Origin: Vulcanimicrobiota bacterium
Lineage (GTDB): Bacteria > Vulcanimicrobiota > Vulcanimicrobiia > Vulcanimicrobiales > Vulcanimicrobiaceae
Length of the DNA stretch: 64,000 nt
Reading direction: 5' to 3'
NCBI GenBank assembly: GCA_003151115.1
Contig: PLWS01000002.1
Coordinates: 806,001 to 870,000 of the forward strand
The position numbers and the translations under genes are program-made. Positions 25,342-34,650 of this stretch are shown here, piece after piece. Every line of letters begins with the position of its first letter. Within the stretch, counting starts at the first letter, position 1. A model generated the notes under the pieces. That model saw only the letters and a list, made by a program, of their open reading frames with translations. It searched no databases and had not been told where the DNA came from.

Positions 25342-25611
25342 GTGGGATTTGCGCTGCACTATCTCTTCGCGCTCGGCATCGTGGCGCTATTGTTGGCCGG
25401 GCTGCACGCCGCGGCGCGCGTTTTCGCACGCCGGCACCAAACGTCGCAGGCCGGTAAGGCCGTACGCATCTTGGAATCGGCTGCGCTGACCAAGGAGGCC
25501 GCACTGCACGTGGCCGGCATTGAAGGGCGCAGATATCTGGTTGGTACTGCCGATGGCTGCATCGCGCTGCTGGCGGAGCTGCCGCCCGAACCGGGCGAAG
25601 CCGCGGATTAG
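25342..25611 (+). CDS. FliO-like small membrane protein
   Basis: An 89-residue protein with one N-terminal transmembrane helix (about residues 5-25). A short cytoplasmic domain follows: V-R-I-L-E-S-A-A-L-T-K-E-A-A-L-H-V-A-G-I-E-G-R-R-Y-L-V-G, given here in parts of the FliO pattern (R-x-L-E, L-x-V-x-x-V/I-x-G-R-x-Y-L-V-G). FliO helps assemble the flagellar type III export gate. GTG start. It stands alone after aroF and overlaps the convergent lipoprotein gene by 4 bases. With no export gate genes nearby its real role is uncertain. Confidence 0.65.
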   Translation: MGFALHYLFALGIVALLLAGLHAAARVFARRHQTSQAGKAVRILESAALTKEAALHVAGIEGRRYLVGTADGCIALLAELPPEPGEAAD

Positions 25612-26630
25612 AAGTAGGTCAGCCGCGCGACTTTATTTGCCGCAGTCTCCGTAAAGTAGATTTCGGAGTCCGGACCGAGCGAGAGGAACGAAGCCTGCGA
25701 AGTCGCGGTCGGAATCGCAAATTCGCTCACTGCGAACGAGATGCCGGAGATTTGGCCCACCTTGTTCTGCGCGCGATCCGTGAAGTAGAGGTTGAAGTCG
25801 GCGCCGCCGACCAAGCCGAACGCCGAAGTTGCCGGCGAGAGCGAGTGCTCGGTAACGACGCCTGCGGGCGTGATCTGTCCGAGCTTGGCCGCGTTATTCT
25901 CCGTGAAGCACAGCGTCTGACCGTCGGGGCAAACCACGATTTGCGTCGGCGCGGCATTTGCCGTTAGCGTCGGGCGCGGCGTTCCGAACGTTTGCGCGGT
26001 GACGTCGAAACGGACGATCGCCGAAGCGTTGCTTTCGACAATCCAGATTCCGCCGTCGCTGAACCCGACAAGGCCGGCGAGCCCGGCGTTAGCGGTCGGT
26101 ACGGGGAATTCGGTGATATTGCCGGTGAGGTCGATGCGCCCGAGCTTGTTGGCGTTTGTTTCGGTGAACCACAGCGCGCCGTCAGGCCCGCGAGTGATAT
26201 ACGTCGGACCGGCGTTTGGCGTCGGCAGCGGGTACTCAGTTGTGTTTGTGCTCGTTTGCATGGCGATCTGGTTGGCGCTGTTTTCGGTGTACCAGATGTT
26301 GCCGTCGGGCGTCGCGACGACGCCGAACGGGCCGGCATTGGCAGTCGGCACCGCGGTTTCGGTAAAGACTCCGCCGGTCGTCATCTTGCCGATCTTGTTG
26401 CCTGCCGTTTCCGCAAAGTAGATAAAGCCGTCGGAACCCAGCGTGATGCCTTGCGGCGCGCTTGCCCCTGTGGGCACGGTGAACTCTGCCGAAACGTGCG
26501 GCACCACCGGCGTGGGAGTGGGCAAAGGCCCGCTGCCGATGACCGTGCCACCGGAGCAGGCAGTTGAGGCCAGCAAGGCCAGGGCGGCCAGGACCAGCCC
26601 GGCGCTGCGAAAGACGAAGGGACGCCGCAT
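25608..26630 (-). CDS. Vgb-like beta-propeller lipoprotein
   Basis: A ~340-residue exported protein with a signal ending L-L-A-S-T-A-C, probably a lipoprotein though the lipobox is imperfect, and a Pro/Thr linker. Six or seven repeats of about 42 residues follow, each with a core such as G-P-D-G-A-L-W-F-T-E-T-N-A-N-K-L-G-R. This is the blade pattern of virginiamycin B lyase and related streptogramin-lyase-like propellers. Antibiotic lyase activity should not be assumed, because many such propellers are structural. The ATG at 26630 has GGAG upstream; the ATG at 26642 has none. Divergent from the blaI promoter. Confidence 0.83.
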   Translation of the reverse strand: MRRPFVFRSAGLVLAALALLASTACSGGTVIGSGPLPTPTPVVPHVSAEFTVPTGASAPQGITLGSDGFIYFAETAGNKIGKMTTGGVFTETAVPTANAGPFGVVATPDGNIWYTENSANQIAMQTSTNTTEYPLPTPNAGPTYITRGPDGALWFTETNANKLGRIDLTGNITEFPVPTANAGLAGLVGFSDGGIWIVESNASAIVRFDVTAQTFGTPRPTLTANAAPTQIVVCPDGQTLCFTENNAAKLGQITPAGVVTEHSLSPATSAFGLVGGADFNLYFTDRAQNKVGQISGISFAVSEFAIPTATSQASFLSLGPDSEIYFTETAANKVARLTYF

Positions 26631-26722
26631 TCGAGTCTCCATTGATAGGGGTAACGAATCGGCGCTATTCGTCCTCTCTCGCTACGGGGCCCGCCACCCT
26701 TGCCTGTATATTAATTCCATAG

Positions 26723-26751
26723 TTGACAAGATGCGCCGGAGGTCTTATATT
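26723..26751 (+). promoter_or_regulatory. Strong promoter of the blaI-M56 operon
   Basis: A perfect TTGACA (26723-26728) and TATATT (26746-26751, 5 of 6) are spaced by exactly 17 bases. They sit in an AT-rich island between the divergent lipoprotein and blaI genes. Confidence 0.85.
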
Positions 26752-26752
26752 C

Positions 26753-26768
26753 TATTAAAGAATTAATA
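26753..26768 (+). promoter_or_regulatory. Probable BlaI operator (inverted repeat)
   Basis: TATTAA-AGAA-TTAATA is a perfect 6-base inverted repeat starting 1 base after the -10 box and covering the expected transcription start. The place suits autorepression by BlaI. The sequence differs from the TACA/TGTA-type bla operators, so binding is inferred. Confidence 0.6.
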
Positions 26769-26793
26769 CATCCCAATTCTTCTGGAGGTTGCC

Positions 26794-27177
26794 ATGGCTC
26801 GTAAGAAATCGCCGACTCTGACCGAGGCGGAGTTGCGTTTGATGGAAGTGCTGTGGCAAAAACGCAGCGCCACGATCGCCGACGTGACCGAAGCCCTGCC
26901 TCCACCGCCGATCGCGTACAACACGGTGCTGACAACGATGCGCATTCTCGAACAAAAAGGCTACGTCAGCCACGAAGAACAGGGTCGCGCGTACCTCTAT
27001 TCGCCGCTTGTCGAACGCGAAGAGGCGGCGCAGTCCGCGGTCGGACTGCTGCTCAACCGTTTCTTTGGAAACAAGTCCGCCGAACTCGCGCTACGCTTAA
27101 TCGAAAACGAACGCCCGGGTGAAGCGGAGCTCCAGCGGCTCAAGACGCTCATCGAACAGTACGAGGAAGGCACGTAA
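26794..27177 (+). CDS. blaI: BlaI/MecI/CopY-family repressor
   Basis: A 127-residue winged-helix repressor, normally inactivated when a BlaR1-type membrane protease is triggered. The N-terminal domain has L-T-E-A-E-L-R-L-M-E-V-L-W and the recognition region P-P-I-A-Y-N-T-V-L-T-T-M-R-I-L. Y-V-S-H-E-E-Q-G-R-A-Y-L-Y follows, then the C-terminal dimerisation helices with L-L-N-R-F-F-G. TGGAGG precedes the ATG. The stop abuts the ATG of the M56 sensor gene. A strong promoter overlapped by an inverted repeat lies upstream. No beta-lactamase gene is nearby, so the name describes the family and not the inducer. Confidence 0.93.
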   Translation: MARKKSPTLTEAELRLMEVLWQKRSATIADVTEALPPPPIAYNTVLTTMRILEQKGYVSHEEQGRAYLYSPLVEREEAAQSAVGLLLNRFFGNKSAELALRLIENERPGEAELQRLKTLIEQYEEGT

Positions 27178-29307
27178 ATGCACGCGCTCGCTGCTTTTTC
27201 TGAACCCGCGGCGCGGATTGCCGTCGCGACGCTCTTCAACAGCCTATGGGAAGGCGCGCTCCTCGCCGTTGCCGTTTGGGCGCTTTTGAACTATCTGCCG
27301 AACATCAACGCGACGACGCGCTATGCCGCTTGGTGCGTCGCGCTGATCGCAGCGCTGGTCGTTCCGGTCGTAACCGCCGTCCCGCAAGTCAGCGTGCAAA
27401 GCGCGCCGGCCTATCACCACGCGGTCGCGCCGCCGCCGGCGGCGATAACGCGCGGCGCCGTCACGGCCGCACGCGTCAAACTGCCGGCAAATGCCGTCAG
27501 CAAAACCGGTGCTGCGGCCGGTGCATCACAACCCGCCGCGATCGCGCCGAGCTTCCCGAGCCGGTTGCGCTTTGCGTTGCCGGAAGCGCTGGCCCTCGGA
27601 ATCTTCGCCGTATGGATCGTTGCGTCGCTCTTCCTTTTAATGCGGCTGGCTTTCAATCTCTTCAAACTCGAGGCGCTCAAGCGCGACGCGCTCCCGCTCT
27701 CGCTCGACTACCGCGAGCAGCTCGCTCGCTGGACGCGTGCGGAAAAAGGCGGGCGCGACATACGCCTGTGCGTTTCCGATCACATCGAAGTGCCCGTGGC
27801 CGTCGGTCTGTTCGACTCGATGGTGCTGATTCCAAAGCACCTGCTCGAAACGCTCTCCGAAAAAGAGATCGATCAAATCACCCTGCACGAACTCGCGCAT
27901 CTGCGCCGCGCCGACGACTGGACCAACGGTTTGCAGCGCGTCATTCAAGCGATCTTTTTCTTCAACCCCGCGGTATTGTTCATGGCGCAACAGCTCGATC
28001 TCGAACGTGAGGTCGCGTGCGACGACTGGGTGCTGCACCAAACCGGCGACGTCCGCCCGTACGCAACCTGTCTCACGCGGATGGCCGAAGTCACGGCGTG
28101 GCCCCATCGCCCACTCGCAGCCCCGGGCGTGTTTCTTACGCGCCGCGGGCTCTCGGTGCGCGTTGAGAGACTGCTTCGGGCAGGCCGCAACGTCCGCACG
28201 AGCGTTTCGTTCGGCCCGGCCGGTGCGGTCGCGGCGGCGCTGATCGTCACGTTCTTCGTCGCGCAAAACGTGGCGCCGTCATTCGCATTCACGCTCGCGC
28301 CCGGCGCGCACGTTACCCAAGCGCACTCTGCCCAAGCACACGCATCTGCGCTGGTCAAACCCGCTAGTGAAGTTGCCAAGACGACGGTCGTCTATCGCAA
28401 CAAGTATGTGCCTTCGCAACAGGGTACGTTCCCGGCGGCAATCGTGGCAGCCGCCACGCCGGCCGCTCGACCGTCGTCCGTCGCAACGAGGAAACAAACG
28501 AAAGTGGTAAAGCGCACGGCGATTCATAACGGTATGGTCGACGTCAACATCCCCGCCGTCAACGTCCACGTTCCGGAAGTCAACGTGAACGTTCCGGCTA
28601 CCGACGTACGCGTCCCGGCCGTCAACGTTCACGTGGCGCCCATCAACGTGAATATTCCGGCGATGCGCTACAAGGTGCCGTACGGCTACAAGGCCGGCCT
28701 AAAACGGGTCGCGGATCTCAACGGCTCGTGCACGGGCTGCGATTTCAGCCACGTGCAGTGGGCCGGACGCAACCTCTCGCGCGTCGCGCTGGTCGGTTCG
28801 GACTTTTCCAACGCGGATCTGCACGGCGCGAACTTCTCGTACGCCAACCTCACGGGCGTGGACTTTACCGGCGCGAATCTGCGCGACGTCAACTTCGCAA
28901 ATGCAAATATGGAAGGCTGCGACATGCGGCATGCCGATTTGACCGGCGCGAACTTTGCCGGCGCGCACATCAACGGCTGCGACATAGAAATATCGAAGTT
29001 GGCGCCGTCGCAGGCACGCGCCATTCTGGCCGGATGCCAAGGCTGCGATTTCCGCGGCGCAAACTTGCGTGGAGCGGACTTGCGCGGGCTATCGGTATCG
29101 GGCGACGATTTCAACTCGGCGGATCTTCGCGGCGCCGACATGCGCAACGCTTCGTTCAACGGTATCGACTTCAAGAATGCCAAACTCGACGGCGCACATC
29201 TTGACGGGGCTTCGTTTAATGGGTGCGATTTTACAAGCGTCGATCTGCGCAACGTCGACTTGAGCCACGCGCAAATCACGGGTAGCAAAATCAACATCAT
29301 GAGGTAG
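27178..29307 (+). CDS. BlaR1-like M56 metalloprotease with C-terminal pentapeptide-repeat sensor
   Basis: A 709-residue membrane protein. The N-terminal part is the BlaR1/MecR1 M56 protease: four helices (about 18-36, 46-66, 138-160, 347-368), the zinc motif H-E-L-A-H at 237-241 and E278 in E-V-A-C-D. Where BlaR1 has a penicillin-binding domain outside the cell, this protein has a linker with V-N-V-x-V-P repeats (~453-495) and then pentapeptide repeats of the A-D/N-L-x-x type (~516-705). C518-x-x-C521 and C620-x-x-C623 open two ~100-residue modules. By topology the repeats should be periplasmic. It is coupled to blaI; the inducer is unknown. Confidence 0.92.
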   Translation: MHALAAFSEPAARIAVATLFNSLWEGALLAVAVWALLNYLPNINATTRYAAWCVALIAALVVPVVTAVPQVSVQSAPAYHHAVAPPPAAITRGAVTAARVKLPANAVSKTGAAAGASQPAAIAPSFPSRLRFALPEALALGIFAVWIVASLFLLMRLAFNLFKLEALKRDALPLSLDYREQLARWTRAEKGGRDIRLCVSDHIEVPVAVGLFDSMVLIPKHLLETLSEKEIDQITLHELAHLRRADDWTNGLQRVIQAIFFFNPAVLFMAQQLDLEREVACDDWVLHQTGDVRPYATCLTRMAEVTAWPHRPLAAPGVFLTRRGLSVRVERLLRAGRNVRTSVSFGPAGAVAAALIVTFFVAQNVAPSFAFTLAPGAHVTQAHSAQAHASALVKPASEVAKTTVVYRNKYVPSQQGTFPAAIVAAATPAARPSSVATRKQTKVVKRTAIHNGMVDVNIPAVNVHVPEVNVNVPATDVRVPAVNVHVAPINVNIPAMRYKVPYGYKAGLKRVADLNGSCTGCDFSHVQWAGRNLSRVALVGSDFSNADLHGANFSYANLTGVDFTGANLRDVNFANANMEGCDMRHADLTGANFAGAHINGCDIEISKLAPSQARAILAGCQGCDFRGANLRGADLRGLSVSGDDFNSADLRGADMRNASFNGIDFKNAKLDGAHLDGASFNGCDFTSVDLRNVDLSHAQITGSKINIMR

Positions 29308-29378
29308 GACCCCGTAACCCCGGTTTTTAGCGCCTGCGCGTGCAAGCTTGGTTTCGTGCGGACTTTTCGGAGAGAAAC

Positions 29379-30209
29379 ATGAGCAAACGTCTTGTAAATC
29401 TGATTGCGGCGGCCTTCGTTGCAGGGTTGTTGATTGGCGGTAGTTCGGGTGCGGCGCGCGCACAGCTGGGAATTCCCCGCTCGTGCGTCGGGTGCGACTT
29501 GCGCGGCAACGACCTCCACGGGCGCGATCTTCGTTCGGTTGCGTGGGTCGGCGTGGATCTGCGCGGCGTGAACTTGCGAAATGCGAACTTCTCGGGCGCG
29601 AAGCTGGCCGGCGTGAACCTTCGCGGCGCGGATCTGCGCGGGGCCGATCTGCGCGATGCCAAATTGGCGGGTTGCGACCTGCGCGACGCCAAGCTGGACG
29701 GCGCAAAGCTGGACGGCATCAAACTTGCCGGCGTCAATCTCGCTGGCAGTTTCTTGAACGGCCTGCCGGATGCCCAGATTCACGCGCTGCTCTCCACCTG
29801 CGCAGGCTGCAACGTCAGCAGCGTCGATCTGCACGGCAAGAACCTGCAAGGCATCAGAACCGCGGGCAGTAATTTTTCCGGCTCAAACTTGAGCGGCACG
29901 AACCTGCGCGACGCGACGCTGATGGCGGACAACTTGTCAGGGGTGAACCTTCAGAACGCGGACCTGGGCGGGGCGGCGCTCTGCGGACACGAGACCGACT
30001 GGAACGACGGCAACGTTGCCCGCGGCTCGCGTATTATCTGCACGAACCTGCGCGGCGCCGATTTGCGTGGCGCGGATCTGCGCGGGGCGTTGCTCTGCGA
30101 TTCGCGCAACGGCCCGGATTACGCAGACCGGCGGGATTGCGCGCCGCTCGACGCCGCGACGCTGCGCGACGTCGCGCACGCCAACCTCACCGGTGCGAAG
30201 GGACCCTGA
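29379..30209 (+). CDS. Secreted pentapeptide-repeat protein
   Basis: A 276-residue protein with a signal peptide (cleavage near A-R-A-Q). The mature part is a right-handed quadrilateral beta-helix of pentapeptide repeats (N-L-R-G-A-D-L-R-G-A-D-L and similar). Two modules each begin with a C-x-G-C motif: C36/C39 in S-C-V-G-C and C141/C144 in T-C-A-G-C. The same modular plan is seen in the sensor part of the M56 protein just upstream, so the two genes share an origin. The ATG at 29379 follows CGGAGAG. It may be a periplasmic partner or decoy of the M56 sensor; no enzyme activity is evident. Confidence 0.88.
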   Translation: MSKRLVNLIAAAFVAGLLIGGSSGAARAQLGIPRSCVGCDLRGNDLHGRDLRSVAWVGVDLRGVNLRNANFSGAKLAGVNLRGADLRGADLRDAKLAGCDLRDAKLDGAKLDGIKLAGVNLAGSFLNGLPDAQIHALLSTCAGCNVSSVDLHGKNLQGIRTAGSNFSGSNLSGTNLRDATLMADNLSGVNLQNADLGGAALCGHETDWNDGNVARGSRIICTNLRGADLRGADLRGALLCDSRNGPDYADRRDCAPLDAATLRDVAHANLTGAKGP

Positions 30210-30210
30210 C

Positions 30211-32277
30211 ATGAAAGCGTTGCTCGCCGTGGCGATCATCGCCGCACTTACCACGGGAACGGCCGCCGCTATCGAACCGGTTGCCGCACAGGATCTGTTG
30301 ACGGTTCCGGTGATCGCGTCGGCGCCGGCGATGGACGGAACGTTAGGAGATCCGCTGTGGCAAAAAGCTGTGACGGCGAGTCTGGGCTATGACGTCAACC
30401 TGCATCAGCCAGCGAAGCAGCCTACGACGGCCTACATGTTGACCGACGGGAGTTTCTTGTACGTCGCGTTCGACGTAAAGACGACGGCGCCGATCAGCGC
30501 TCGGGAGCACACGAACGGCGTCGGTATGGATACGGATGACGAAGTGCAAGTCGACTTGTGGCCCGGCGGCGACCAAGGCTTTATGTATAAGTTCACGTCG
30601 ACCCCGATCGGCACGCATTACCAATTTTCAACCGAAAACAATTCGTACGAGCCGAATTGGATCTCATCCGGTAAGGTCAATGCGGGCGGATTTACCGTGA
30701 CGATGAAGATTCCGCTGGCGGGAATGCGCGGCGCAGGCAAAATGTGGCGCGTGCAATTCATACGCTTGTCTCCGGCCACGCGCGAGAGTTTGGTGTGGCG
30801 GGGCGCCGCGAGTCAAAGCGACTTCAACGACGTGACGTTCGCCGGCCGGCTGACCGGAATTCCGACCGTGGGGTCGTCGCATCCCAAGAGCCGCATCGCC
30901 GTTTACGGATTGGGATCGCTGGCTTCGCGTTCGATCGGCGGCAGCACGTCGCGCGCGGGCGTCGATCTGTCGATCCCAATCGACTCGAGCACGTCGTTCG
31001 TGGCGACGCTGCATCCGGACTATTCGAACGTGGAGACGGATCAGCAGAGCATTTCGCCGACCGCGTTCAGGCGGTTCTTCAACGAAGTTCGCCCGTTCTT
31101 CACGCAGGGAGCGAACTTTTACAATCCGTTCTCGTGCACGGGCTGCCCGGGTATCCAGGAACTCTACACGCCGGCCATCCCGACGCCGCGCGACGGATAC
31201 GCCATTGAAGGAAAAGAAGGGCGGTTCAACTTCGCCGGCTTCGACGCCGTCGGAATCGATCGGAACGACAACGCGCAATCGTTCTACTATAAGACGCCGA
31301 ACCGCCGCGTGCAAATTGCGACGCAGCGCGTCGCCGTAAGTATGCCGGGTTTCAACGACGTCACCGTTACCGACGGCATCACGTACGACAACCATTCGGA
31401 CCTCTTTGCGTACTACAATTGGGGTTACGACCGCGGCACTTCGGTGCTCGACAACAACGATAACAAACGTTCCGATTTCGGAATTGCTTACGATCCCCCG
31501 AACCTCTTCGCGGATTTCAGTATCCGGAAGCTCGGCACATATTACAATCCGTTTGACGGCATCGTCTCGCACCCGGGCATCGCCGGTTATAATTTCAATG
31601 TTTGGAAACAATGGAACTATACGGGAAACAGCGCCTTTAAGTGGATCCAGGTCTTTGGCTCCATCGACCGTTACCACGGAACCACAGGCGCGCTCAATCA
31701 GACCGATAACAACCTCGGCTTCGACGTGCTGACGCGCAACTTCATCGAGCTCTGGGCTAACACGGGCTCGTCCTACCTGCTGCTCGGCAACGGCGTCTTC
31801 GCGCCGATCACCATCAACTCGCGCGGCTTCGGCTGGCGCAGTTCGACTGCATATCCAACCTTCATCGAATACGATTCCGGCCGGTTCGGGCCGGGCCGCA
31901 TCGTATCGTGGGCACGCAGCAGCGTCATGCGCGTGGGTAACCGCGCGTCGATCACGCTGCAGGCGAACGACACGCAGCAGTACCTCGATAACGGACCCAC
32001 CTACACGCAATGGTTAGAGCGCCTGAGCTATGCATACCAAAGCGGTTTGAACGAGTCGTTCGCGGTCGGCGTACGGCGCATCATCGGCTTCTCGCCGGTG
32101 CTCGCTGCGGGCGACGTTCCGTCTTTTTCCAGTGGCTGGAATCTTTCGTTCGCCTATCATAAACTGCTGGCGCACAACGAGATCTATCTGGTGTACGGAG
32201 ATGCCAGCGCGTTCTCGACCTCGCCCCAGCTGATCTTCAAAGTCGTGCACTATTTCGGCGCCGATAAGGGAACGTAA
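30211..32277 (+). CDS. DUF5916 protein with CBM9-like N-terminal domain
   Basis: A 688-residue exported protein. After a signal peptide (ends near T-A-A-A) comes a family 9 carbohydrate-binding-like domain (A-P-A-M-D-G-T-L-G-D-P-L-W-Q, L-Y-V-A-F-D-V-K, D-T-D-D-E-V-Q-V-D-L), followed by DUF5916. Alternating hydrophobic strands in the long C-terminal part and an aromatic ending suggest an outer-membrane beta barrel. E-V-R-P-F-F-T-Q-G-A-N-F-Y is a typical DUF5916 block. It starts 1 base after the pentapeptide gene and is probably co-transcribed. Function unknown; family members are often annotated as hydrolases without proof. Confidence 0.83.
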   Translation: MKALLAVAIIAALTTGTAAAIEPVAAQDLLTVPVIASAPAMDGTLGDPLWQKAVTASLGYDVNLHQPAKQPTTAYMLTDGSFLYVAFDVKTTAPISAREHTNGVGMDTDDEVQVDLWPGGDQGFMYKFTSTPIGTHYQFSTENNSYEPNWISSGKVNAGGFTVTMKIPLAGMRGAGKMWRVQFIRLSPATRESLVWRGAASQSDFNDVTFAGRLTGIPTVGSSHPKSRIAVYGLGSLASRSIGGSTSRAGVDLSIPIDSSTSFVATLHPDYSNVETDQQSISPTAFRRFFNEVRPFFTQGANFYNPFSCTGCPGIQELYTPAIPTPRDGYAIEGKEGRFNFAGFDAVGIDRNDNAQSFYYKTPNRRVQIATQRVAVSMPGFNDVTVTDGITYDNHSDLFAYYNWGYDRGTSVLDNNDNKRSDFGIAYDPPNLFADFSIRKLGTYYNPFDGIVSHPGIAGYNFNVWKQWNYTGNSAFKWIQVFGSIDRYHGTTGALNQTDNNLGFDVLTRNFIELWANTGSSYLLLGNGVFAPITINSRGFGWRSSTAYPTFIEYDSGRFGPGRIVSWARSSVMRVGNRASITLQANDTQQYLDNGPTYTQWLERLSYAYQSGLNESFAVGVRRIIGFSPVLAAGDVPSFSSGWNLSFAYHKLLAHNEIYLVYGDASAFSTSPQLIFKVVHYFGADKGT

Positions 32278-32301
32278 GCCGCTCGCGGCGTAAAAAGGGG
32301 C

Positions 32302-33081
32302 ATGTGGATCACGCTCGCGATGGCGGTCTCGCTCGCCACTCCGGCGCCGGCTGCCACGCCCCTCAAGACGATTGAGCACTTGCACGTTTCGCCGCTTTGC
32401 ACGGGCCTGCGGCAAAACATCGGGCCCGCAATCGGCAAGGTGCTGCAAAACGACAACACGATTGCGCAAAGCCGTCCGCTGCTGCGCGGTTATGTCAAGG
32501 CGGCCGGCACGGACAGCGGCTCAAAAGATTTGCAAGTGTCGCGCATCGAGCGCCTGATCACGCCGCTGGTCAAAAATACGGCCGCGATTGAAAAACTGCT
32601 GAACGATCCATACGTCTTCCCGAAGCGTGCGATCTCCGATTCCGACCGGCAACTGCTCGAAATACGCGCGAATTTGCAGGAAGTCGTGACCCAGCAAAAG
32701 CGCGCACTGGATGTTATTAGCGGTTTCGTCGACACCGAGCAGCTCGGTCAAATGCAAGCCGCGGGCTCGGAAGCGATCAAACTCACCCAGACGCACGAGA
32801 TTCCCGGCGCGCAAGGCGGCGATTCGAGCGCACGAGACGCCGCCGCTGGGCCGACGCCGCCGCCTTCGGAGATTTTAAATGCGGGCGTCAGCAGCCCGCC
32901 GCAGATTGCGCCGGATCCGCGGCTCCGGGATTCGGGACTGGTCGTCGGCCACAACCCGCTCGACATTTTCGATCAGGCGATCGCAGAATATCAGCAGATG
33001 CTGCAGACGAGTGAAGGTCGCGCGGCAGACCTCGTGGTGAAAGCGTTACCGCTTTGCGGAGGGCGGGTCCCCGGTACCTAA
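32302..33081 (+). CDS. Secreted protein of unknown function
   Basis: A 259-residue exported protein. A short signal peptide (ends P-A-P-A-A-T) is followed by helical sequence with a H-L-H-V-S-P-L-C-T-G-L-R-Q-N-I-G segment. A long helix comes next (L-L-E-I-R-A-N-L-Q-E-V-V-T-Q-Q-K-R), then a Pro/Ala-rich stretch with P-T-P-P-P-S, and a final helical part. I recognise no family. It follows the DUF5916 gene by 24 bases and overlaps the convergent hyuB gene by 36 bases. It may be the last gene of the blaI-pentapeptide transcript. Confidence 0.7.
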   Translation: MWITLAMAVSLATPAPAATPLKTIEHLHVSPLCTGLRQNIGPAIGKVLQNDNTIAQSRPLLRGYVKAAGTDSGSKDLQVSRIERLITPLVKNTAAIEKLLNDPYVFPKRAISDSDRQLLEIRANLQEVVTQQKRALDVISGFVDTEQLGQMQAAGSEAIKLTQTHEIPGAQGGDSSARDAAAGPTPPPSEILNAGVSSPPQIAPDPRLRDSGLVVGHNPLDIFDQAIAEYQQMLQTSEGRAADLVVKALPLCGGRVPGT

Positions 33082-34650
33082 TCCGCCGCCGCCCGGCGTT
33101 TGCACTTCCAGCGTCTCTCCCGGTTCGAATGCGAAAGTCGTTTTTGCGGGAAGCTTTTCCGCGCTTGCGCCCGCGCGCAGAAGAGTGTGCCGTCCGCACG
33201 CGCCGTTTTCTCCGCCGCCGCTTCCGCGCGGTTCGACGGTGTGCCGCTCCGAGAGTAACGAGATGTGTGCGCGGCCTTGTGTGAGCTGCAGCGCGCGAAC
33301 GAGCCCATTCCCGCCGTTGAATTTCCCGCGGCCGCCCGTTCCTTCGGCAATTTCATAGCGCGTGACGCGCAGCGGATAGTCGCGCTCGATGGCTTCAATG
33401 GGTGTATTCAGGGTATTGGTCATGTGGCACTGGATGGCGTCCAGGCCGTCCAGGCCCGGGCGCGCGCCCATTCCGCAGCCGTTCGTCTCGTAAAAAGCCC
33501 AGGGCGTACCGTCATCGCGCGTTCCGCCAATCATGACGTTGGTCATCGTTCCGCCGCTCTGCGCGGGGACGCGATCCGGCGCGGCTTGCCCGAGCGCGGC
33601 GAGGACCACGTCGGCGTTGCGCGTGCTCGTTTCGACGTTGCCTCCGCCGACTGGCGCCGGTCTGAACGGATTGAGCAGCGTTCCCTCCGGAACGTCGACG
33701 GAGACCGGGCGGAAGCAACCCTCGTTCATCGGAATCGACGGGTCGGTAACTGCGCGCAAGGCGTAGTAAACACCTGAAAGCGTAACTCCGTATACGGCAT
33801 TCATCGGAAACGGCAGCTGCGCGGCCGTGCCCGCGTAATCAAAATGCGCGCTGCCGTCCTTCAGCGTGAGGCGTAACGCTATCCGGATCGAAGGCTGGCC
33901 ATCGCGATCCTCCAAGACGTCTTCGCTTTCGAACGTGCCTTCGCACATCCGGCCGAGCGCGGCGCGCATGCGCGTTTCGCTTTGGTCGATGATTCTATCG
34001 ATAGCAGCGCGCAGGGTATGGATGCCGTACCGCTCGCAGAGTTCTTGGAACCGGCGCTCGCCCGTATAATTGCCGGCGGTTTGCGCGCGCAGATCGCCGC
34101 TGCGCGCATCGGGCGTGCGCGAGTTTGCGCGAAACATATCGATCGTCGAAGAAACGTCGCGATCTTCAACGACCAGGCGCATTGGCGGGACCACGAGTCC
34201 CTCGGCAAAGAGATCCGCTGCGTCGGCTGACATCGACCCGGGAACCATTCCGCCGACGTCGGTATGATGCGCCTTGTTGGCTGCGTAGCCGGCGAGCTCG
34301 CCGCGAAAGAAGATCGGACGAATAACCGTGACGTCGTTGAGGTGTGTACCGGAGATATAGGGATCGTTGACAACCCACATCTCGCCGTTTTCAAGCGCAC
34401 TTGTTTCGCGCACGATAACCTCGACGGTGCGACGCAGTCCCCACGGAAGGGAGCCGAGATGAACCGGAATGTGCTCGGCCTGCGCGATCAGGCGCGCGTC
34501 GCGGTCGAAGAGCGCGCACGAATGGTCGAGACGTTCTTTGATATTGGGCGAGTACGCGCTGTTGCGAACGGCAATGCCCATCTCTTCGCTCGCATAGATC
34601 AGCGAATTTTTGATCACTTCGACGGTGATCGGATCGAGGTCCGCGGTCAT
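33046..34650 (-). CDS. hyuB: Hydantoinase B/oxoprolinase-type subunit
   Basis: B subunit of an ATP-dependent hydantoinase/5-oxoprolinase/acetone-carboxylase-type enzyme. The 534-residue protein starts D-P-I-T-V-E-V-I-K-N-S-L, has N-D-P-Y-I-S-G-T-H-L-N-D, G-G-M-V-P-G-S-M-S-A-D and G-G-G-N-V-E-T-S. It ends with the Gly-rich Q-T-P-G-G-G-G-L-G typical of HyuB. It overlaps hyuA by 4 bases; the two subunits form one enzyme. Substrate (5-oxoproline, hydantoin or other lactam) cannot be read from sequence. It overlaps the convergent secreted-protein gene by 36 bases. Confidence 0.93.
   Translation of the reverse strand: MTADLDPITVEVIKNSLIYASEEMGIAVRNSAYSPNIKERLDHSCALFDRDARLIAQAEHIPVHLGSLPWGLRRTVEVIVRETSALENGEMWVVNDPYISGTHLNDVTVIRPIFFRGELAGYAANKAHHTDVGGMVPGSMSADAADLFAEGLVVPPMRLVVEDRDVSSTIDMFRANSRTPDARSGDLRAQTAGNYTGERRFQELCERYGIHTLRAAIDRIIDQSETRMRAALGRMCEGTFESEDVLEDRDGQPSIRIALRLTLKDGSAHFDYAGTAAQLPFPMNAVYGVTLSGVYYALRAVTDPSIPMNEGCFRPVSVDVPEGTLLNPFRPAPVGGGNVETSTRNADVVLAALGQAAPDRVPAQSGGTMTNVMIGGTRDDGTPWAFYETNGCGMGARPGLDGLDAIQCHMTNTLNTPIEAIERDYPLRVTRYEIAEGTGGRGKFNGGNGLVRALQLTQGRAHISLLSERHTVEPRGSGGGENGACGRHTLLRAGASAEKLPAKTTFAFEPGETLEVQTPGGGGLGTGDPPSAKR

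Follow-up and report, generated by a model that had tools for sequence, protein, structure and literature searches.

What does a BlaI/M56 relay respond to when its protease carries a pair of pentapeptide modules in place of a penicillin-binding sensor? To our knowledge, most of what is known about relays of the BlaR1 type comes from beta-lactam resistance, plus a single copper switch. We analyzed an operon in a 64,000-nucleotide stretch of DNA (the window; contig PLWS01000002.1, positions 806,001 to 870,000) from a soil bacterium, Ca. Eremiobacterota (Vulcanimicrobiota), in which blaI is followed by a gene for an M56 metalloprotease fused to pentapeptide repeats (PRP). Coordinates below are those of the window.

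Results

The operon pairs blaI with an M56-PRP fusion and genes for predicted envelope proteins. The order is promoter, blaI, the M56-PRP fusion, a secreted PRP, a protein with a CBM9 domain and a barrel (DUF5916), and a small, probably secreted protein.

26709..26724, + strand, candidate operator box A, TATTAATTCCATAGTT, overlapping the -35 element, with two mismatches to TAYTAANNNNTTARTA; most relatives have a box in the corresponding position
26723..26751, + strand, sigma-70-type promoter, TTGACA-17-TATATT, 11 of 12 consensus letters
26753..26768, + strand, candidate operator box B, TATTAAAGAATTAATA, an exact palindrome 44 bp from box A, where transcription is expected to begin
26794..27177, + strand, blaI repressor gene (Pfam Penicillinase_R PF03965, E 1.6e-30), aligning with BlaI/MecI structures
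27178..29307, + strand, M56 metalloprotease with pentapeptide ectodomain, 709 aa (Pfam Peptidase_M56 E 1.3e-36, Pentapeptide E 2.2e-41)
27886..27900, + strand, HELAH zinc site (H237, E238, H241) with third ligand E278, invariant in 49 M56 proteins
28537..28656, + strand, linker of seven-residue repeats VNVxVPx, predicted strands (454-493 in the model)
28729..29028, + strand, pentapeptide module 1, beginning with a CTGC cap (C518, C521; cap motif and model)
29035..29292, + strand, pentapeptide module 2, beginning with a CQGC cap (C620, C623) and containing invariant C683 (cap motif and model)
29379..30209, + strand, putatively secreted two-module PRP with CxGC caps (Pfam E 1.2e-36) and a hydrophobic N-terminus
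30211..32277, + strand, DUF5916 protein (Pfam E 1.7e-6) with a CBM9-like domain and a beta-barrel of the outer-membrane type behind a signal peptide
32302..33081, + strand, small, probably secreted protein without a known family (Pfam/NCBIfam), the last gene of the operon

The original prediction had named the blaI and BlaR1-type gene pair, the two pentapeptide modules of the protease, the separate secreted pentapeptide gene and the DUF5916 barrel-like protein, and the domain searches recovered each of them. It had also named another secreted protein at the end of the operon. That gene is present, and its position is conserved across the genus and in parts of the family, but its product had no family match in Pfam or NCBIfam and secretion is suggested by a weakly signal-peptide-like N-terminus. 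We rejected an anti-phage system, with no PADLOC match.

The protease part of the fusion resembles BlaR1. The spacing of its zinc ligands (H237, H241 and E278) is that of BlaR1 H201, H205 and E242, an HExxH motif followed by a glutamate 37 residues on, and F319 falls roughly where the P1' phenylalanine of an autocleavage loop would be expected (Phe in 37 of the 49 M56 proteins). A structure model of the fusion had a mean pLDDT of 80.4, exceeding 90 over most of the protease and PRP blocks, and its residues 15-323 matched BlaR1 with a Z score of 20.6 (246 residues aligned, rmsd 3.0). The hydrophobic segments and the model both give a four-helix topology like that of BlaR1. The fusion is thus predicted, from this modeled topology, to cross the inner membrane four times with the protease in the cytoplasm and the PRP modules in the periplasm, in agreement with the earlier placement of the repeats outside the membrane. 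Pfam and NCBIfam detected no penicillin-binding domain in the fusion protein, as had been proposed. The fusion is the sole M56 protein in its genome.

Purifying selection acts on the PRP ectodomain as strongly as on the protease. The CxGC caps are at residues 518 and 620, 102 residues apart, and C518, C521, C620, C623 and C683 are invariant in 23 fusions. Residues 508-709 of the model matched solved PRP structures with Z scores of about 20. Estimates of dN/dS were 0.055-0.137 for the PRP ectodomain and 0.097-0.185 for the protease, in contrast to 0.19-0.38 for the linker, which falls in the fastest-evolving part of the fusion.

The fusion is conserved in dozens of genomes. We scanned 84,980 species and examined the best 80 loci; about 42 of these had the M56-PRP fusion, nearly all in one phylum (Eremiobacterota). 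Where the upstream region was visible, blaI preceded the fusion in 37 of 39 loci, and about a third of the fusion loci with room downstream (14/39) lacked an adjacent secreted PRP. The original prediction could have failed if the fusion were unique to one assembly and broke apart in relatives; instead it is kept and linked to blaI. The number of genomes, together with dN/dS, rules out an assembly or fusion artefact. On the M56 tree, the fused-PRP label changed about five times (4-6 in bootstraps; at least three changes are forced by starred branches), with gains of the fused PRP indistinguishable from losses. The association between a PRP sensor and a neighboring PRP has few independent origins, giving too few independent pairs for a phylogeny-corrected test. 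Among the papers covered by our literature search, none gave a precedent for an M56-PRP fusion.

Two candidate operator boxes flank the promoter. A strong promoter overlapped by an inverted repeat had been described; the promoter holds (-35 TTGACA at 26723-26728, a 17-nt spacer, and -10 TATATT at 26746-26751), but there are two repeats rather than one. The boxes fit a candidate consensus YTAA-N4-TTAR and lie on both sides of the promoter, and most family members have paired boxes 44-46 bp apart. Both are putative sites of BlaI binding. The loose two-mismatch pattern alone did no better than its control in the organism's own genome (29 versus 53 per strand), and specificity came only with the composite site, a box plus the -35 element or the pair of boxes. 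The composite site had 65 matches in 117 genomes compared to none in the reversed control. The 58 distinct composite sites were located before blaI/M56 operons (38), DUF5916 genes (9), secreted PRP genes (5) and others (6).

Judging from these sites, the switch appears to act on genes for outer-membrane proteins and secreted PRPs. A second DUF5916 gene, elsewhere in the same genome, also has both boxes. The regulon may be shared, because M56 systems of the same phylum that have no PRP use the same operator type and a second, orphan blaI in this genome has a similar box. The CxGC caps are found on the sensor and on most of the PRPs under the operator. We had asked whether they mark secreted PRPs in general, and rejected this: of the secreted PRPs in this genome, the others that we examined have no such caps. 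Secreted PRPs elsewhere in this genome are fused to long C-terminal parts resembling outer-membrane proteins.

In the secreted PRP, each of the two CxGC pairs opens a module, rather than one pair lying at each end, and the C-terminal tail (...NLTGAKGP) has little charge. Its module 1 is nearest to module 1 of the sensor (mean identity 0.42, versus 0.29-0.38 for the other sensor-partner pairs). The match of the fourth gene product to DUF5916 (PF19313) scored 27.6 bits against a cut-off of 22.6 and was partial (residues 249-307); CBM9_1 was detected in 15 of 30 relatives. Its structure model (mean pLDDT 75) matched CBM9 with a Z score of 19.6 and outer-membrane barrels with Z scores of about 14. 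Searching by sequence, we found no relative of the DUF5916 profile among solved structures, and our literature search found no paper that names DUF5916.

Discussion

We favor, as somewhat better than an even bet, a reading in which BlaI and the M56 protease form a relay, the PRP sensor faces the envelope, and the targets are outer-membrane and secreted PRP genes. Signal transduction, perhaps in response to envelope stress, a metal or a peptide, had been proposed for this locus. The relay, the predicted placement of the PRP modules, the genetic linkage and the presence of the operator upstream of genes for outer-membrane barrels and secreted PRPs partly support the proposal, and what the system detects is probably the condition of the envelope. 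At rest, BlaI dimers would occupy both boxes flanking the promoter and the operon would be off or low. The M56 protein would hold its protease inside the cell, and a flexible linker would carry its two-module PRP beta-helix in the periplasm. A change in the envelope would alter the PRP rod or its binding partner; candidates are outer-membrane damage or imbalance, a metal, and a thiol or redox change at the cysteine caps. The freed protease would cut BlaI, as in BlaR1. Leu102 of BlaI aligns with the scissile Phe of Staphylococcus aureus BlaI; that Phe is absent here, and the equivalent position is Leu in 83 of 95 relatives. Since the scissile Phe is replaced, a cut possibly near residue 102 is a guess. 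The promoter would then open, and the secreted PRP, the outer-membrane barrel with its sugar-binding-like domain and the small secreted protein would be made, along with the second DUF5916 barrel. The secreted PRP, built like the sensor ectodomain, would probably restore or report the envelope state and so close the loop. In a more specific and unlikely version, the sensor rod and the induced secreted PRPs would recognize each other through their cysteine-capped ends, gauging the outer membrane and answering by BlaI proteolysis.

Several other explanations were weighed. The BlaI and M56 domains would fit a receptor for beta-lactams like BlaR1 or MecR1. No penicillin-binding domain was detected, however, the operon has no gene for a beta-lactamase or PBP, and none was recognized among the operator targets; we regard this reading as extremely improbable. 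The PRP part might instead serve passively, as a scaffold or as an anchor to, say, the outer membrane or cell wall, with the signal passing through the M56 helices or an extracellular loop. PRPs are rigid rods with no known ligand pocket, and the outer-membrane-protein-like extensions of other secreted PRPs in this genome would suit an anchor; the five invariant cysteines and the strength of selection along the whole rod argue against it, and we consider it quite unlikely.

A metal sensor seems rather doubtful to us. In that scheme zinc, copper or calcium would bind to the caps or to an acidic face of the PRP, and the barrel and PRPs would deal with metal or with an envelope damaged by it. The CxGC pairs are conserved, the BlaI/M56 pair PetR/PetP responds to copper (PMC7896320), and the Caulobacter PRP YjbI responds to zinc stress and has a calcium-binding relative, 2G0Y (PMC12864828). 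However, neither the operon nor those operator targets that we read contained a recognizable gene for a metal transporter, chaperone or efflux system, and a cysteine-based trigger is weakened because the cysteines of YjbI are dispensable for its zinc-induced turnover (PMC12864828). Somewhat more credible, if still doubtful, is that the cysteine pairs are structural disulfides capping an exported beta-helix and that signaling is triggered by a ligand or a partner protein, such as the secreted PRP binding end to end. The caps at the N-termini of the modules, the shared two-module layout and the similarity between the first modules fit this idea, but the fusion loci without an adjacent secreted PRP show that the neighboring gene is not obligatory.

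The envelope-sensing relay that we favor is a variant of the known BlaI/M56 relay. With BlaI/BlaR1 and MecI/MecR1 of S. aureus it shares a repressor, an M56 gluzincin with four predicted helices, the zinc-ligand spacing and the predicted fold; it differs in its PRP ectodomain, in the Leu at the BlaI scissile position, and in its predicted targets, which are outer-membrane and secreted proteins rather than beta-lactamase or PBP2a. Qnr and MfpA are cytoplasmic DNA mimics that act on gyrase, and their quadrilateral pentapeptide beta-helix is shared by the modules here. We set aside a cytoplasmic gyrase mimic on predicted location, as these modules come after the fourth and last hydrophobic segment and are predicted to face outward. 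The contrast drawn earlier with PRPs as intracellular DNA mimics was nevertheless too strong, as secreted PRPs are known and YjbI of Caulobacter crescentus is a surface PRP (PMC12864828). YjbI has two cysteine pairs and regulates envelope stress and outer-membrane content, and so offers a precedent for a secreted PRP with cysteine pairs in envelope signaling; unlike the fusion, it stands alone and acts through two-component systems, with no protease fusion and no tie to BlaI (PMC12864828). Its cysteine pairs flank the beta-helix and its charged C-terminal tail is in the outer membrane; in the secreted PRP of this operon each pair opens a module and the tail carries little charge. PetR/PetP of Synechocystis, a BlaI-family factor and a BlaR1-family protease that control plastocyanin and cytochrome c6, likewise uses such a pair for a signal other than a beta-lactam, and a commentary on that pair mentions no PRP fusion (PMC7896320).

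If our reading is correct, the BlaR1-type module would be a general plug-in envelope sensor and PRPs would have a receptor role. The fourth gene, which belongs by Pfam to the DUF5916/CBM9-domain outer-membrane proteins, is found here with a candidate regulator; this would be the first regulatory context for the uncharacterized DUF5916 barrels in a little-studied phylum, and the operator pattern allows the predicted regulon to be tested directly.

The M56 protease fusion and its operon

The protease fused to two pentapeptide-repeat (PRP) modules is encoded in an operon of five genes, all in the same direction, on contig C6 of a 2.55 Mb genome whose close named relatives are Candidatus Eremiobacterota (NCBI phylum Vulcanimicrobiota). 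Genes of the operon and its surroundings:

25608-26642, minus strand, divergent; propeller protein of the Vgb-lyase (virginiamycin B lyase-like) family
26794-27177, blaI
27178-29307, M56 protease with pentapeptide C-terminus, beginning directly after the blaI stop
29379-30209, secreted pentapeptide protein
30211-32277, DUF5916 protein
32302-33081, small, probably secreted protein (fifth gene)
33046-34650, minus strand, convergent gene after the operon

The protease part of the fusion retains the BlaR1 active site and has a predicted BlaR1-like fold. Its Pfam matches are Peptidase_M56 (residues 25-329), and those of the C-terminal part are pentapeptide repeats (about 518 to 705). In the AlphaFold2 model (mean pLDDT 80.4), confidence was low in the linker and mostly exceeded 90 in the protease and PRP blocks. 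Residues 15-323 superposed with Z 20.6 (246 residues, rmsd 3.0) on S. aureus BlaR1; for residues 508-709 the matches were solved PRPs, among them HetL (Z 20.3). The zinc ligands of BlaR1 are H201, H205 and E242 (PMC9834060); H237, H241 and E278 keep their spacing and are invariant across 49 M56 proteins. F319 falls close to the BlaR1 self-cleavage place (F284) and is Phe in 37 of the 49. In S. aureus BlaI the scissile residue is Phe; the aligned position here is Leu102, which is Leu in 83 of 95 relatives, so BlaI cleavage at this position is conjectural. The linker (28537-28656, residues 454-493) has seven-residue VNVxVPx repeats, predicted to form regular strands, and is fast-evolving yet found again in many relatives.

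Each PRP module begins with a cysteine cap, CxGC(D/N/S), and the caps are separated by 102 residues in nearly all fusions. C518, C521, C620, C623 and C683 were invariant among 23 fusions with 30-87% identity to that of the window. The secreted partner (third gene) has the same two-module layout, with caps 105 residues apart, and its module 1 is most similar to module 1 of the sensor. We found no CxxC in the other secreted PRPs examined in this genome, indicating that the caps belong with this system. They may be disulfides with a structural role, sites for metal binding or switches responsive to redox state. Two loci of the same genome (L190 3537-6870 and L191 4631-8236) hold more cap-less secreted PRPs, two of which are joined to long C-terminal parts with outer-membrane-barrel-like ends. 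L088, L091 and L103 hold a shorter form of the fusion, in which a single PRP module is capped by CxxxC; DUF5916 genes flank L088 and L103 on both sides.

The modeled DUF5916 protein (mean pLDDT 75.0) combines a signal helix with an N-terminal CBM9-like sandwich (Z 19.6 to CBM9 modules) and, at the C-terminus, a barrel that resembles porins and transporters of the outer membrane (Z about 14). Half of its relatives have a CBM9_1 Pfam match. No mention of DUF5916 was found in the literature searched.

Distribution and conservation

The BlaI-linked M56-pentapeptide fusion noted originally recurs across genomes: among the 80 top loci of a pattern-based GTDB scan, about 42 were fusions, so it is not confined to one assembly. 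All except one (L132) were from Eremiobacterota or from MAGs that group with Eremiobacterota despite other labels; a pattern-based scan restricted to its best 80 loci makes the count outside the phylum a lower bound. The exception, on a contig labelled Gloeobacterales, is without cysteine caps; independent origin and a mislabelled contig are both candidates. Two MAGs labelled Proteobacteria and Rhodospirillales (L075 and L106) match Eremiobacterota genomes, and these labels look wrong. Some match was present in 44 of 60 relatives examined, and the full-length fusion spans two families of the class. The tree is compatible with one or several fusion origins.

Fusion loci had blaI upstream (37/39), a stand-alone PRP downstream (25/39, versus 0/33 non-PRP loci) and DUF5916 (26/39 versus 2/33). 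These counts were generated automatically, with one PRP call (L135) being false, and are not corrected for shared descent; a test with that correction was left with only two to four pairs. Within the genus, dN/dS was 0.055-0.137 for the PRP part, 0.097-0.185 for the protease and 0.19-0.38 for the linker. One genus member (G001, locus L213) has lost, as if by one deletion, the M56-PRP gene, the PRP gene and nearly all of DUF5916, and keeps the operator, blaI and a DUF5916 tail; its last gene is frameshifted.

The predicted operator and its putative regulon

The operon promoter (TTGACA-17-TATATT, 26723-26751) matches 11 of 12 consensus positions and is accompanied by two putative operator boxes: TATTAAAGAATTAATA, an exact palindrome, occupies 26753-26768, and a second, imperfect copy spanning 26709-26724 overlaps the -35. 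Both boxes (core YTAA-N4-TTAR) were found again in relatives, 44-46 bp start to start wherever both were found. The Vgb-lyase-family gene is separated from the imperfect box by 67 bp, a position often kept in relatives, and may share the operator with the operon.

The composite site is specific, unlike the loose single box, for which a search of this genome was without specificity. TTGACA-N25-29-YTAANNNNTTAR was found at 38 sites across 61 genomes, with only a handful in the reversed control, mostly in far phylum members; TTAGTTGACA-N20-29-YTAANNNNTTAR gave 65 sites among the matches listed in 117 genomes of the class, and the reversed control gave 0. Three Gemmatimonadota blaI-M56 loci without PRP (L126, L127 and L128) have the same two-box layout, so the operator plan may predate the PRP sensor.

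Downstream of the 58 distinct composite sites in the retrieved DNA were blaI/M56 (38), DUF5916 (9), secreted PRP (5) and other genes (6, including one DUF4097 gene and one site truncated by a contig end). CxGC caps are present in four of the five trans PRPs, and for at least one of them (L201) the next gene encodes DUF5700, a putative zinc peptidase. A second DUF5916 gene of this genome (C7, start 2306, minus strand) has both boxes. Based on these targets, the predicted operator connects the BlaI/M56 relay with secreted PRPs and barrels of the outer membrane rather than with genes for antibiotic resistance, with the caveats that M56 systems of this phylum that lack PRP share the box type and that an orphan blaI of this genome (C2:221494; L253 7474-7860), without an M56 partner, has a similar upstream box, CCTAAATCATTAGG.

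Discussion

The system is of the BlaI/M56 kind and would operate in the manner of BlaI/BlaR1; a beta-lactam receptor was rejected for it. PetR/PetP, a pair of this type serving another signal, shows that such pairs are not tied to beta-lactams (PMC7896320). BlaR1 cleaves BlaI directly, after a conformational change passed on from its outer domain (PMC9834060). Gene order, the conserved fusion, the active site, the box pair and the genes it precedes are read from the sequence; the topology, secretion, DNA binding, cleavage and induction of the system are predictions. The PRP rod would stand in for the penicillin sensor and track envelope state, and the secreted PRP and barrel would be the response. 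YjbI is a precedent for envelope stress and outer-membrane content being governed by a cysteine-paired secreted PRP; its cysteines were dispensable for zinc-induced turnover (PMC12864828). Our literature search, which does not prove absence, found no earlier report of what seems new here: the union of the BlaI/M56 relay and the secreted-PRP envelope idea in a single protein that comes with an operator code of its own.
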